Shown: positions 39,677 through 46,199 of the stretch, in pieces | Layout of the letters: each line of letters begins with the position of its first letter | Position numbering within the stretch: the first letter of the stretch is position 1 | Source of the DNA: Microcaldota archaeon | GTDB lineage: Archaea > Micrarchaeota > Micrarchaeia > Micrarchaeales > CABMGC01 | Length of the DNA: 53,322 bases | Assembly: GCA_021804095.1 (NCBI GenBank) | Contig: JAJZKQ010000003.1 | Location: 1 to 53,322 of the forward strand | Direction of reading: 5' to 3' | Program-made: the position numbers and the translations under genes | The notes under the pieces: model-generated | What the model was told of the DNA's origin: nothing | What the model saw: only the letters and a program-made list of their open reading frames with translations | Databases searched by the model: none

Positions 39677-42600
39677 ATGGTTTCTACAATGCTCTTTACC
39701 GACCTCCTAATCGGATTCTTATCAATAATGCTTCCAGGTTTCTTCCTGGCCTTAGGCCTCCTAAAGAAAACCAAGCTTAACCTGTTTGAGATATCGGTTA
39801 TAGGATTCATATTTGGAATGATATTTCCTCCTATGCTTACTTGGACAGAATCATACTTCAGGGACATCATACATGCATTCTCTTTTTCAGCAGGTCTCTA
39901 CAACATAAATGTAATATTGCTTACTATAATCGGAATTGCCATATCCTATCAGCAGGGTGCTCTAGACCTCTCTTTCCTTAAGAAAAAGGTCTCTTCTTCA
40001 AAATCCAATTCAAGAGTCATAACAGAAATAAATGCATCAGCAAGAGAGCGGATAACACATCTCAGAAAGCAGTTTTCTTCAGCAGAACTGGACATGACTA
40101 TGGTAAAGGCACATGAAAAAGAAGAGGAAGACCTGGTAAAAAGAAACAGTGATGAGATTGAGGCCCTAAAAAAGAAAGGCGCAGGTTCAGAAGAATTGGA
40201 ACATGTAAAAAAATCCCATATAGAGGAAGAAAACAGGCTCATAAGCGAGCATGAAAGAGAGGAAAAACATTTTCTAAGCAGTGGAAAGAGCACAGCAGAG
40301 AAAAGCTCTTCTTCAGACTCAAGGAAATGGGCTTATGTTGTATGGGGCATTCTCTTCGCGATAATGCTGATTACATTTGCTTCAAGAATAATAAATATAG
40401 GGAACTCTCCAAAATACTTCGAATTCGATCCCTATTTCGATATGTTAAGTACAAGGCAGATATTAGCCTACGGCTATCAATTCAGGCTTGACTACTCCGC
40501 ATGGCCTGTAAACAACGGCACTACAGACAGGATACAGCCATTGATTCCTTATCTGGAAGCATATTGGTATCGAATTGCAGATACGCATCCAAGTTCATCT
40601 ACAATAAGCACCAATCTTCTATCCCTCGTAAGTTCATATTATCCGCCAATAACAGCAGCGCTCCTTGTTTTCATAGTCTTCATGTTTGTCTATCATGAGT
40701 ACGGATCCCTGCCTGCACTTACTGCTGCAGCACTTGTAGCGACAATGCCTACCCTGATAACTACATTCATAGCAGGAGAGCAACTTCTTGAACCATGGGG
40801 TATCTTTGCATTATTCTTCATGGTGGCAGCATACTCTCTCGCAGTAAAAAATCCAAAAGAGAAGAGATATGCAATACTTGCCGGAATAGCATTCGCATCT
40901 AATTTCCTAGGAGCCCACTACTACAATGTAACCGCTGCAGTCCTTGCACTTTACATACTTGTACAAGGAATACTTGACACTCTGAGAAAAAAGAGCAGCA
41001 TAGACTTCTTCAAATCAAATGGGATTATGCTCCTTGTCATAATAATATTCTATGTAATATATGCTCCTTACAATGCAACCCTTACAAACAGGATCCCTAG
41101 CATACTTGGCATACCAACCATCATAGGTTTCCCACTCATAGCGTTTATAGCTGCACTGATATTCGAATATCTTCCCATGTATCTTGAAAAGTACAAACTC
41201 CTGAAAAGAACAACTGTAAACGATCTTGTAGTAAGAATAGGGCTTCTTGTCCTGATCCTGGCTCTTGCAGTGCTCAGTCCTCTCAGCAAGCCTATAACAT
41301 CTTTCTTAGCACTTGCTTCTCACTTCACAACACCTTCAACTCCCCTATTCATGACTGTACAAGAATACGTTACTACCGGAGCCGGATTCAACTTCGGATC
41401 AGCAGGATTTGGAGTTATAGGAGCAGCAATATCCGGATTTCCTATAACTGTATGGATAATTCTTGTACTATTTGGAATATTCACCATATATGATATTTTC
41501 GTAAAAGATTCAAGGTCCGCAATATTTACTTTCGTCATGGTAGCTGTGCTTACTGTGGCAGGAATGAGTGAAATAAAGTATCTTCCACACTTCGGTGTAG
41601 CTTACATAATCGCCCTTGGAATCGTTATAGGCGAACTTTACATCTTTATAAAAAAGCTTGAGCCTTCAAAGAGGCAGATCGCAACGTATGCCCTGATTGC
41701 TATCATACTAATTGCAATAATATTCGAATCAGTATCTATGCTAAGCACATTCACCGCCTATGGGAAAAGTTGCAATAATGTAACAAATGTCGTAGCCGCT
41801 ACCATGTATTGCAATACTCTTACAAACCAATGGCTAAATGCACTTTCATGGATGAAAAGCAACATAGGCCCCCACGCACCCAGAATACTCGCATGGTGGG
41901 ATTATGGAGACTGGATAAACTGGTTTGGAAATAGCAATGCCGTAATAAGAGGCGATAATGCAGTCGCAACACTTGACTACAATGTAGCAGCACACTTCGT
42001 TCTAGGCAACAAGGATGGATACAATGCTACCAGGCTTGCATCATTCATGGACAACACAGCCCAGGCAGGATATCTTTTATTTGACAATCAACTAGTGCAG
42101 AAATGGTCTGCCCTAGACTTCCTCGCCTGTGTAGACATAAACCAGACAAGCCGTGCCTATGCAATATCACAGGGAGTGCAATATAATCAGCCGTTCCTGA
42201 TAGGCACATCCCCATGCGAGACGGCTCATGATCCGGTAGACATAGCCATTCCAGAACAGCCTACTATAAACCAGTACTGCAGCTTTTCCAATACCACCAC
42301 TGCGGTTCAGGGATTAGCCCTTGTAGGAGAGACCATACCTAATGTTCTAAACTCATCGTACTGTGTCTCAACAACTCCCAACTCAAACGGAGTTCTGGAT
42401 GTATACAACGAAAACGGCACCAAGACCAATATAGTACTTTCTACTAACTATATTTTAGGAAACCTTCAGGGCCCTAACGGCCAGACGCTACTGGAATTCT
42501 TTGCAATATATCTACCAAACGGACCAAATGATACTATTACGAATGCCCCTACTGAGTTTTACAGCTCGACATACTACAAGGGCTTCTTCTTCGGGAAACT

Positions 42601-42763
42601 GCCAGGATACACTCTAGTTTATCCTGAGAACTTCTCCGGAATAAACATGGTGAACTCATCAAACCAGGTAATGATACTGAAGCTCAATAACTACACTGGA
42701 AAGCTTCCATACATACCTCCCAAGCCCAGCTGGGTTCACAACAATTACACTATACCTGGATGA
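39677..42763 (+). CDS. aglB: AglB/STT3-family oligosaccharyltransferase with an N-terminal extension
   Basis: FEFDPYFDML, GEQLLEPWGIF, catalytic-motif-like WWDYGDWINW; many TM segments and a C-terminal soluble domain. Confidence 0.92.
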   Translation: MVSTMLFTDLLIGFLSIMLPGFFLALGLLKKTKLNLFEISVIGFIFGMIFPPMLTWTESYFRDIIHAFSFSAGLYNINVILLTIIGIAISYQQGALDLSFLKKKVSSSKSNSRVITEINASARERITHLRKQFSSAELDMTMVKAHEKEEEDLVKRNSDEIEALKKKGAGSEELEHVKKSHIEEENRLISEHEREEKHFLSSGKSTAEKSSSSDSRKWAYVVWGILFAIMLITFASRIINIGNSPKYFEFDPYFDMLSTRQILAYGYQFRLDYSAWPVNNGTTDRIQPLIPYLEAYWYRIADTHPSSSTISTNLLSLVSSYYPPITAALLVFIVFMFVYHEYGSLPALTAAALVATMPTLITTFIAGEQLLEPWGIFALFFMVAAYSLAVKNPKEKRYAILAGIAFASNFLGAHYYNVTAAVLALYILVQGILDTLRKKSSIDFFKSNGIMLLVIIIFYVIYAPYNATLTNRIPSILGIPTIIGFPLIAFIAALIFEYLPMYLEKYKLLKRTTVNDLVVRIGLLVLILALAVLSPLSKPITSFLALASHFTTPSTPLFMTVQEYVTTGAGFNFGSAGFGVIGAAISGFPITVWIILVLFGIFTIYDIFVKDSRSAIFTFVMVAVLTVAGMSEIKYLPHFGVAYIIALGIVIGELYIFIKKLEPSKRQIATYALIAIILIAIIFESVSMLSTFTAYGKSCNNVTNVVAATMYCNTLTNQWLNALSWMKSNIGPHAPRILAWWDYGDWINWFGNSNAVIRGDNAVATLDYNVAAHFVLGNKDGYNATRLASFMDNTAQAGYLLFDNQLVQKWSALDFLACVDINQTSRAYAISQGVQYNQPFLIGTSPCETAHDPVDIAIPEQPTINQYCSFSNTTTAVQGLALVGETIPNVLNSSYCVSTTPNSNGVLDVYNENGTKTNIVLSTNYILGNLQGPNGQTLLEFFAIYLPNGPNDTITNAPTEFYSSTYYKGFFFGKLPGYTLVYPENFSGINMVNSSNQVMILKLNNYTGKLPYIPPKPSWVHNNYTIPG

Positions 42764-42774
42764 GGGATTAGTGA

Positions 42775-43926
42775 ATGAAACTTCTCATAATACAGCCATA
42801 TGTATCCCTTAAAGGCGGTTTTGAGCGTGTAATGCTGAAGATAGCCGAACACTATTCCGCATCTATATATACTCTCGAATACAATCCAAAAACAACATTT
42901 CCAGAATTCAAAAACCTAGACATAAAGGTAATCGGAAAGGATGTGCCTTTCTCAGAAGCACTTCCATACAGGGCATCGCAAGGCCTCAGATACGGGTACA
43001 ATTTCTATAATTTAAAGATAACCGAAGATTATGATGTGCTAAATGCACATATCTCCCCAAGCGAGTGGATACGCCATAAGAACCAGAGAGTCTTATGGTA
43101 CTGCCATACTCCTCCAAGGGAGGTTTTCGACCTCTACTCTGAAAGGATGAGGTATCGGTCATACAAAGAGAAATTCCTATATTCTGCAATGACCAAAGCC
43201 TACAAGCTGATATCCCACAGGGTTATAAAAAACATAGAAGCCATAGCTGCAAATTCAACAAATACACAGGCAAGAATCCTGAAATACCTTGGAAGGGAAT
43301 CCGAAGTCATAAATCCCGGGATAGACTATGAAAAATTCAGTAATCATGGAGATGACAAGTATTTCTTCTATCCTTCAAGAATACTTACCAACAAGCGCCA
43401 AGATTATGTAATAGAAGCATTCAAGCGGTTCAACAAGTCCTCTAAAAAAAGGTACCGCCTTATAATTGCAGGTACCCTGTCTGAGAATCCAGAACACCAG
43501 GCCTATTATAAAAAGTTAATATCCCTATCCAAAGGTCTAGACATAAAGATAAAAACAAACATAACAGACAAGGAGCTTTCAGGTCTCTATTCCGAATCTT
43601 CCGCTGTGCTCTTTTCCGCAATAAACGAGGATTATGGGTACGTGCCCTTGGAAGGAATGGCAAGTTCCAAGCCTGTAATATCTGTAAATGAAGGCGGACC
43701 GAGAGAGACAATATTGGAAGGAAAAACCGGTTTTCTAGTCAATTCGCCAAAGGAGATGGCCGAAAAAATGCTTTACCTCACAGAGCATCCAGGAGAATCA
43801 ACAAAGATGGGCAGAAATGGGAGGAAGCGAGTTATAAGCAACTATTCCTGGGAAATCTTCTTTAAAAAATTTGACAATGAACTCTCAAAAGCCAGCAAGC
43901 AGCCAGAAGACAAAAAAGAGAAATGA
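42775..43926 (+). CDS. Glycosyltransferase family 4
   Basis: FYPSRILTNKRQDYVIEAFKRF, YGYVPLEGMASSKPVISVNEGGPRETILEGKTGFLV. Confidence 0.92.
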   Translation: MKLLIIQPYVSLKGGFERVMLKIAEHYSASIYTLEYNPKTTFPEFKNLDIKVIGKDVPFSEALPYRASQGLRYGYNFYNLKITEDYDVLNAHISPSEWIRHKNQRVLWYCHTPPREVFDLYSERMRYRSYKEKFLYSAMTKAYKLISHRVIKNIEAIAANSTNTQARILKYLGRESEVINPGIDYEKFSNHGDDKYFFYPSRILTNKRQDYVIEAFKRFNKSSKKRYRLIIAGTLSENPEHQAYYKKLISLSKGLDIKIKTNITDKELSGLYSESSAVLFSAINEDYGYVPLEGMASSKPVISVNEGGPRETILEGKTGFLVNSPKEMAEKMLYLTEHPGESTKMGRNGRKRVISNYSWEIFFKKFDNELSKASKQPEDKKEK

Positions 43927-43978: not shown

Positions 43979-44020
43979 GCAGGGGAAGCCCACGCCGTTT
44001 ACGAGTGGAAGGATGTCAAG
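43979..44020 (+). mobile_element. Possible relic of an IS200/IS605-type (TnpB-associated) right end
   Basis: gcaggggaagcccacgccgtttacgagtggaaggatgtcaag resembles, from memory, the CCCACGCC-GTTTA-GGCGTGG-(G)AGGATGTCA hairpin ends of archaeal IS605-type elements; no tnpB ORF in the window. Confidence 0.35.
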
Positions 44021-44324
44021 AGATTACATACTTTGATATGACCTTTGTTGCCCTCTCGAGTACTATCTTTATGTCCTTGGTTGTATTTGATCCGGTACAG
44101 ATCAGTTTACCATTTTTGAATAATATTATAACTGCCTTAGGCTCCTTTATCCTATATATTGCCCCTGGAAATTGTTCAGGCTCGTAATCGACTTCCCTGA
44201 TATTCTTCGAAAGAGAAAATAAGTCTATATTGGCATGGAGATCCGATTTTACCACTATGTTTTGTATCTTTATTTTAGGATTTATCTTAACTAAGGGCTT
44301 TCTGCCTTTTTCTTCCTTTGCCAT
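44016..44324 (-). CDS. Single-repeat (half-size) TATA-binding protein
   Basis: [81 protein letters not shown] matches one TBP repeat only; 102 aa. Confidence 0.88.
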   Translation of the reverse strand: [102 protein letters not shown]

Positions 44325-44445
44325 GGTATTCAGATATACTTATAACATGAAGCTTTTTAAAGCTATCTTGGAAAATTACTCTTCCATAAGCTCTATTTTC
44401 ATATAAAGAGCAGGCATCTATCCACCAAACCGCTTTCTCCAAAGG

Positions 44446-44546: not shown

Positions 44547-46199
44547 ATGGCAGAAAACCAACTAGGAGGGCAACAGTATTTGATATTACCTGAAGGGGCA
44601 AGCAGACTAATCGGAAAGGAAGCCCAACGTACCAACATTGCAGTAGGGTATGCAGTATCCAGCATAGTGCGAACTACTCTGGGTCCAAAGGGAATGGACA
44701 AGATGCTGGTAAGCGAATTAGGGGACATAATAATAACTAACGACGGAGCAACAATCCTGCAAGAGATGAATGTAGAGCATCCTATAGCAAAGATAATGGT
44801 TGAGATAGCCAAGACACAGGATAAGGAGGTAGGCGACGGAACAACCTCTGCAGTAATAATAGCGGGAGAGATGCTAAAGAACGCAGGAGGCCTGCTTGAC
44901 CAGGGAATACCGCCTGCAGCAATAATAAAAGGCTACGAGATGGCAAGATCCAAGGCATATGAGATATTAAACTCAATAGCCGGCAATATAAGCCTAAACG
45001 ATGAGGAAAAACTGCAAAAGATAGCAATGATCTCAATGGGCTCAAAGAACATAGGAAGCGCAGAGACAAAGCAGATGCTTGCCAAATTAGCATTGCAGGC
45101 AATAAAACAGGTATCCATAACCAACGGAGCCAAAGTAACAATAGACAGGGACTTCATAAAGCTCGAGAAGAAGGAAGGTAGCTCTATAGAAGAGACCAGC
45201 TTCATAAATGGGGTTCTTATAGACAAGGAAATAGCACATCCTGGAATGCCTAAACAGATAAAGGACGCAAAGATAGCTCTACTTGACGTTGCTCTGGAAA
45301 TAGAAAAGACAGAAACAGACGCAAGGATAGAGATAACCTCTCCAGACCAGATGCAGGCATTCCTAGCCCAGGAAGAAAAAATGCTTAAGGAGATGGCCGA
45401 AAAGATAGCAAAGAGCGGTGCAAACGTAATATTTGTCCAGAAAGGGATAGATGATGTTGCACAGCATTATCTCTCAAAGGCAGGCATAATGGCTGTCAGA
45501 AGGGCGAAGAAGAGCGACATGGAAAAGCTTGCAAAGGCAACAGGCGCAAGGCTTGTAACAAGCCTTGACGACCTCACAAAAGAGGATCTTGGATACGCAG
45601 GTCTGGTAGAAGAGAAGAAAGTCTCAGGAGAACAGATGGTATTCGTAGAGAAATGCAAAGATCCAAAGAGCGTCACCATCTTCATAAGGGGAGGCGCAAA
45701 ACAGACAGTTGACGAGGTAGAAAGGGCACTTACAGATGCTCTAGGCGCACTCGCAAGTGCAATAGAGTCAGGCAAATATGTGACTGGCGGAGGAAGCACT
45801 GAGATCGAGGTAGCCTCAAAGATAAGGGATTATGCAACTGATGTAGGTGGCAGGGAGCAGCTTGCCATACAGGCATTTGCAGACGCATTGGAGGTTATAC
45901 CTAAGACTCTTGCAGACAGCGCAGGAATGGATGCCATAGATACTCTAGTAAATCTAAGGACTAAGCATAAAACCGATGCCGGTAAAGTCTATGGAATAGA
46001 TGTATACACCAACTCCATAGCCGACATGGAAAAGCCAGGAGTAATAGAGCCTCTAAAGGTAAAGCTCCAGGCTCTTTCAAGCGCCACAGAAGCCACAGCC
46101 GCAATCCTAAGGATAGATGATATGATAAGTTCCAAAGGAAGATCGGGAGGCGGAGGAGGAGCAGGAATGCCTCCAGGAATGGGCGGAATGCCTGAATAA
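44547..46199 (+). CDS. thsA: Thermosome subunit (group II chaperonin)
   Basis: VRTTLGPKGMDKMLVSELGDIIITNDGATIL, GDGTTSAVIIAGEML, Gly/Met-rich C-terminus. Confidence 0.98.
   Translation: MAENQLGGQQYLILPEGASRLIGKEAQRTNIAVGYAVSSIVRTTLGPKGMDKMLVSELGDIIITNDGATILQEMNVEHPIAKIMVEIAKTQDKEVGDGTTSAVIIAGEMLKNAGGLLDQGIPPAAIIKGYEMARSKAYEILNSIAGNISLNDEEKLQKIAMISMGSKNIGSAETKQMLAKLALQAIKQVSITNGAKVTIDRDFIKLEKKEGSSIEETSFINGVLIDKEIAHPGMPKQIKDAKIALLDVALEIEKTETDARIEITSPDQMQAFLAQEEKMLKEMAEKIAKSGANVIFVQKGIDDVAQHYLSKAGIMAVRRAKKSDMEKLAKATGARLVTSLDDLTKEDLGYAGLVEEKKVSGEQMVFVEKCKDPKSVTIFIRGGAKQTVDEVERALTDALGALASAIESGKYVTGGGSTEIEVASKIRDYATDVGGREQLAIQAFADALEVIPKTLADSAGMDAIDTLVNLRTKHKTDAGKVYGIDVYTNSIADMEKPGVIEPLKVKLQALSSATEATAAILRIDDMISSKGRSGGGGGAGMPPGMGGMPE

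Follow-up and report, generated by a model that had tools for sequence, protein, structure and literature searches.

The two fused repeats of the TATA-binding protein (TBP) are a textbook case of ancient duplication. Archaea and eukaryotes are assumed to have as many N as C lobes (PMC7221094), and the duplication that produced them is assumed to have been a single event (PMC4910066). Two acidic positions of the C lobe, C.L3.2 and C.L3.4, contact TFB, and the N-terminal domain of RNase HIII is known to bind a nucleic-acid duplex with just one TBP-type lobe (PMC7221094). Haloarchaea possess more than one TBP gene, which may let them select among TBPs (PMC7289017). A genome comparison across DPANN archaea found TBP conserved in about 89% of genomes and left its size unremarked (PMC8407392). 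Our survey of the searchable literature, which misses some relevant papers, recovered no earlier report of a single-repeat TBP.

The window analyzed here, a stretch of 53,322 nucleotides from a Micrarchaeota genome, contains a single-repeat TBP gene on the minus strand (44016..44324), which we refer to as copy B. Its open reading frame starts with ATG, encodes 102 aa, includes the stop codon within these coordinates and has no internal stops. Pfam TBP (PF00352) matched the protein only once, at residues 17-99 and over the whole profile (1-85), with 88.1 bits and E = 3.6e-25, far above the curated cut-off of 22.9 bits for the TBP repeat family; the half-size TBP proposed by the first-pass annotation of this DNA was thus confirmed. 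AlphaFold2 predicted a single TBP lobe for the monomer (mean pLDDT 89.5), formed by this sole repeat (44028..44276, minus strand), and the top 44 solved-structure matches in a fold search with the model were all TBPs.

Alignment of 36 half-TBPs revealed that N22, V24, F52, F69, and I75 are invariant and T77 is nearly so. Phe52 (44169..44171, minus strand) and Phe69 (44118..44120, minus strand) occupy the first and second DNA-kinking Phe positions of a TBP lobe, both kept as initially noted, and Asn22 (44259..44261, minus strand) corresponds to the Asn with which each lobe touches the center of the TATA box; we take these DNA-contact roles to be those seen in established TBP-DNA structures. All per-lobe contacts of a classical TBP, i.e., two intercalating Phe, the central Asn, Val/Ile, and Thr, are present in copy B. 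In the motif YEPEQ (residues 47-51; 44172..44186, minus strand), both Glu residues, E48 and E50, are also invariant in the 36 proteins and correspond to C.L3.2 and C.L3.4. The earlier impression that the repeat resembles the C-terminal half of TBP holds for this C-lobe TFB motif but does not extend to overall similarity, since repeats 1 and 2 of Methanocaldococcus jannaschii TBP are matched near-equally (63.0 vs 65.7 bits), nor to origin, on which the trees are discordant. A classical TBP comprises two tandem repeats in one chain of ~180 aa and forms a saddle of two lobes that binds TATA DNA and bends it, whereas copy B has one repeat in 102 aa. Since this defining architecture is lacking, we class copy B, whose sequence, fold, and contact residues are those of a TBP, as a single-lobe TBP and not as a classical one. 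Upstream of the gene, we read by eye a candidate TATA box, TTTAAAAA (44354..44361, minus strand), at -37..-30 from the start codon, and a second AT-rich stretch, TTATAAGTATAT (44334-44345).

The source genome comprises 811 kb in 41 contigs and is 82.8% complete. Using a six-frame search that reads through stops, we detected two TBP repeats in the whole genome, copy B and copy A, the latter a second single-repeat gene on another contig (C30:5570-5818) that codes for a protein of 120-123 aa. This whole-genome search found no two-repeat TBP in the 82.8% of the genome that is covered, and even a half-TBP model at E <= 10 returned no further TBP repeats in it. Since stops were read through, a hidden frameshifted second repeat at the locus is excluded, and no second repeat lies nearby on either side, in agreement with the first-pass annotation. 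The same annotation had proposed that the half might homodimerize, pair with another half, or compete with a full TBP encoded elsewhere. The first two proposals were strengthened: many near-complete relatives encode one half-TBP and nothing else, and copy A could serve as a second half. The third is unsupported: neither this genome, at 82.8% completeness, nor most relatives yielded a full TBP; our candidate of a full-length TBP elsewhere in the genome was rejected when another half was found instead. A split TBP consisting of one N-type and one C-type gene is not supported either, since A and B group with other half-TBPs in the repeat tree and neither groups with ordinary N or C repeats.

Copy B is flanked by genes for a GT4 glycosyltransferase (42775..43926, plus strand) and a thermosome subunit (44547..46199, plus strand). 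The single-repeat gene is present in all five genomes of the same genus (5/5), where it adjoins the same GT4 and/or thermosome gene wherever the sequence extent permits a check; close relatives thus carry the same half gene at this locus and not a full two-repeat gene. The thermosome gene is the other neighbor of copy B in about 11 relatives, and tblastn showed the GT4 neighbor to be conserved in families f1 and f2, with an identity of 83% in the same genus, 59-83% across f1, and 45-55% in f2. Because the same GT4 gene adjoins copy B in both families, copy B predates their split. Its dN/dS within the genus, taken where dS is not saturated, is about 0.05, with values of 0.04-0.09. Copy B is a conserved old paralog under purifying selection. 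The f2 genomes whose loci were read contain both A and B; many near-complete f1 genomes contain A only and have probably lost B. Elsewhere in the window, positions 39677-42763 (plus strand) encode a 1028-aa membrane protein with the oligosaccharyltransferase motif WWDYGDW and an unusual long charged coiled-coil-like insert near the N-terminus (about residues 105-220).

Half-TBPs are widespread in the relatives, most of which are represented by assemblies from metagenomes. Among 60 relatives drawn from its genus, family, and order, 59 have TBP repeats, with open frames that are almost all single-repeat genes, and a draw across the phylum Micrarchaeota gave a TBP match in 272 of 295 genomes. Judged from the open reading frames of about 135 loci, single-repeat TBPs occur in families f1, f2, f8-f11, f13-f15, f17, f19, f21, f22, f24, and f25, and two-repeat TBPs in f3-f7, f12, f16, f18, f20, f23, and f26. 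At a completeness of >= 90% and a contamination of <= 5%, 24 genomes have exactly one TBP repeat genome-wide (11 from f1 and 13 from other families), and every near-complete genome with one match whose open frame was examined proved to be single-repeat. G033 (a single contig), G007 (97% complete), G014, G028, and G029 each have a sole TBP repeat, and a model built from half-TBPs retrieved no second one in these five genomes at E <= 10. A second phylum-level group (the phylum of G297, 19 genomes) also encodes mostly half-TBPs, one to three per genome, with two-repeat TBPs in G308 and G309. The loci of Woesearchaeota, Thermoplasmatota, and Thermococcaceae show two repeats throughout. An apparent quarter-TBP in G307 was rejected as a contig break.

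Several individual loci deviate from this pattern. Three f11 genomes (G081, G087, and G099) contain two or three near-alike half-TBP genes each (L081-L084, L041, and L057), in G087 with two head-to-tail copies about 1 kb apart, a pattern that looks like recent copy-number growth. G093, a half-TBP genome, has a small contig with a two-repeat archaeal TBP of the ordinary kind (L034, G093:C43:2733-3251), which probably came from a contaminating archaeon. Besides normal repeats, G158 (L106, G158:C12:19300-19539) and G101 (L105, G101:C3:8789-9031) encode additional single TBP repeats that are strongly diverged (about 41-42 bits) and are possible regulators. L281 (G315), L285 (G314), and L287 (G308) are half- or two-repeat TBPs with long Lys/Ala-rich tails like those of histone H1. 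In G308, a 726-aa open frame (L286, G308:C8:9538-10695) contains four divergent TBP repeats and, after them, an apparent membrane segment and one more domain; a TBP-like protein with four lobes and a membrane anchor would be new. The two TBP-like repeats of L282 (G315:C1:23919-24398) stand behind an apparent lipoprotein signal peptide (AILLAGCTS), which suggests an exported TBP-fold protein.

To place the two-repeat TBPs of these groups, we compared their repeats with each other and with those of ordinary archaea, where N and C repeats are 44-57% identical and 91 residues apart. In the two-repeat TBPs of Micrarchaeota, the repeats are, with rare exceptions, 51-82% identical and 92-94 residues apart; in those of the second group, they are 83-86% identical. 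A leader of the KPxFKIEN type precedes both repeats of the two-repeat Micrarchaeota proteins, as it does in half-TBPs. In the repeat tree, all half, N, and C repeats of both groups fall on one side of a branch (100/99), and constraining all N and all C repeats into opposite clades was rejected (lnL lower by 105.8, AU p = 9.8e-5), which rejects one N/C duplication common to all of them. This common branch and the rejected constraint show that the two-repeat TBPs of both groups are no simple continuation of the ordinary N/C pair. In an aEF2 tree with other archaea as the outgroup, all 17 Micrarchaeota genomes with two-repeat TBPs form one clade (100/100) nested among half lineages; the sister of this clade is f21, a family with half-TBPs (96/99), and the second phylum-level group is outermost. 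Given this nesting, the most economical account suggests that one lobe was lost in a common ancestor and that re-duplication followed later, once in Micrarchaeota and again in the second group.

Like repeats would also be produced by gene conversion, in which case the two-repeat TBPs of the phylum would be old and never lost, their repeats homogenized, and the halves the result of many separate losses. In favor of this account, the aEF2 data alone do not reject holding the single-repeat Micrarchaeota together (AU p = 0.106). We nevertheless regard it as rather unlikely, since the two-repeat genomes are a well-supported clade inside half lineages, their repeat spacing differs from that of ordinary archaea, and the half-TBP-type leader stands before both repeats. 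A further point against it comes from an f1 genome, in which two half-TBPs that agree at 98 of the 99 bases they share form an in-frame tandem at a contig end (L028, G021:C39:11027-11422). This tandem looks like either a very recent fusion in progress or an assembly artefact at the contig end.

L157, a Micrarchaeota TBP with two fused repeats that are 74% identical, was predicted to form a normal saddle (mean pLDDT 94.6) with a TM score of 0.90 to the TBP of Sulfolobus acidocaldarius. This model may be viewed as a natural stand-in for a fused dimer and lends indirect support to the idea that a dimer of halves would take the same shape. We are fairly confident that the window gene encodes one TBP lobe and that the TBP of this lineage is a dimer of one-lobe subunits, with A as the ancestral subunit and B as a paralog. 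In half-only genomes, two identical or similar halves probably make up the working TBP, and as one-lobe subunits they would join edge to edge into the usual TBP saddle. Copy A would be the ancestral housekeeping subunit, acting as a homodimer in relatives that have nothing else. Judged by its residues alone, copy B would make B/B or A/B dimers and so provide a second form of TBP. Since each half has full DNA contacts and the TFB-contact motif, such a dimer would present TFB with two equivalent stirrups, and the BRE beside the TATA box would set the direction of transcription.

TFB itself is ordinary, with two cyclin repeats, in 28 of the 30 genomes searched, half-only genomes included, so that the possibility of TFB being halved too was rejected; the two-repeat TFB of the source genome is located at G000:C35:1920-2444. 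G007, a genome with a single half-TBP, also encodes a second, longer TFB-like protein (480-aa frame, G007:C3:462822-463433). TATA boxes were sought in G033, whose G+C content is 56%. Averaged regions upstream of start codons gave little signal, probably because of poor start calls at this G+C content, and we therefore used the regions upstream of 20 tRNA genes. These revealed an AT-rich block at about -36 to -24, with an AT fraction of 0.80 at -30 vs about 0.35-0.4 further upstream and TATA boxes such as ATTATTTAAT, TGTATATAAG, and TAATTATAAATA. An unsupervised motif search upstream of protein genes returned the nearly palindromic ATWTWTWWAT, which correlates with its own reverse complement at 0.72. 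The TATA-like boxes show that TBP activity is present in G033 and are silent on how its TBP is built. As an eight-base TATA box needs two lobes, a homodimer is the simplest reading for this genome.

For copy B, a different role is conceivable. It could be a regulator that dampens or redirects the A/A dimer, either by pairing with A or by binding to TFB or to one half of a TATA box. Consistent with this, copy B occupies a long branch of its own in the repeat tree (0.84, 100/100) and, being missing from a good part of f1, is dispensable and need not be a general factor. We consider such a role unlikely: none of the residues that contact DNA or TFB has been lost from B, and purifying selection on it is strong, as is more to be expected of an active factor than of a dominant negative. 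In the dimer-of-halves reading that we prefer, the many near-complete f1 genomes with A alone mean that general transcription can run on A and that B is an additional TBP subunit.

The origin of the half itself allows two further accounts. The half-TBP could be the original TBP, kept since before the founding duplication and without any secondary loss. Unrooted repeat trees place the half clade near the division of N and C repeats with no clear attachment, and the half state is basal in Micrarchaeota and the second group in the aEF2 tree. Woesearchaeota are usually counted in the same DPANN assemblage, yet their TBPs have two repeats, an N and a C repeat of the ordinary kind, so the idea needs the half-TBP clade to have branched off ahead of all other archaea; loss is simpler under the outgroup used, and we hold an ancestral half to be quite improbable. 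We give still less credence to the wider proposal that these archaea still recognize promoters with the undivided prototype of TBP, a never-duplicated symmetric homodimer of one-lobe chains and the source of the two-lobe TBP of eukaryotes and all other archaea, with the two-lobe TBPs of the relatives as separate later inventions. On 80 alignment columns, half-TBPs lie near the C repeats in one tree and nearer the N side in another. A C-terminal half left by loss of the N repeat, favored by YEPEQ and by one tree, was not kept in a tree with more outgroups, in which the ordinary C repeats are one group (90/80). Finally, despite the draft state of the genome (41 contigs), there is next to no chance that copy B is an artefact of a frameshift or a contig break or a remnant of a full TBP in decay, a reading already refuted by the conserved single-repeat gene in relatives: the gene is intact, distant from contig ends, of similar length in five congeners, present in dozens of species, and under purifying selection.

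If loss of a lobe followed by renewed duplication is true, the statements of equal lobe numbers (PMC7221094) and of a single duplication (PMC4910066) fail for these groups. Much of a phylum without the TBP fusion breaks the rule of two fused halves, and some two-repeat TBPs of this phylum and of the second group look as if newly assembled from halves. Together, the half-TBPs and the fused TBPs related to them would offer a direct laboratory test of the step from a symmetric dimer to an asymmetric two-lobe protein. They would also allow testing whether TBP, or instead TFB with the BRE, sets promoter direction.

Among known systems, archaeal TBP (PF00352; M. jannaschii 2z8u, Pyrococcus woesei 1ais, S. 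acidocaldarius 1mp9) resembles the half-TBPs in repeat, fold, and DNA- and TFB-contact residues, with sequence matches down to E = 9e-37. It differs in having two repeats per chain, whereas half-TBPs have one and both of their would-be lobes carry the C-lobe TFB motif. The N-terminal TBP-like domain of RNase HIII (DUF3378, PF11858) shares with them the single TBP-type lobe, but its profile matches copy B only weakly (17.1 bits, below the cut-off of 27), which places copy B outside this family, and the 102 aa contain no nuclease or other domain. The multiple TBP paralogs of haloarchaea, which form alternative TBP/TFB pairs, are comparable in that more than one TBP gene is found per genome. Haloarchaeal paralogs are full two-repeat proteins, whereas in the present lineage the selection would be made among the halves that enter a dimer. 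The closest relatives of the half-TBPs are the two-repeat TBPs of other Micrarchaeota, which differ from them in having two fused lobes and in which both repeats resemble the half.
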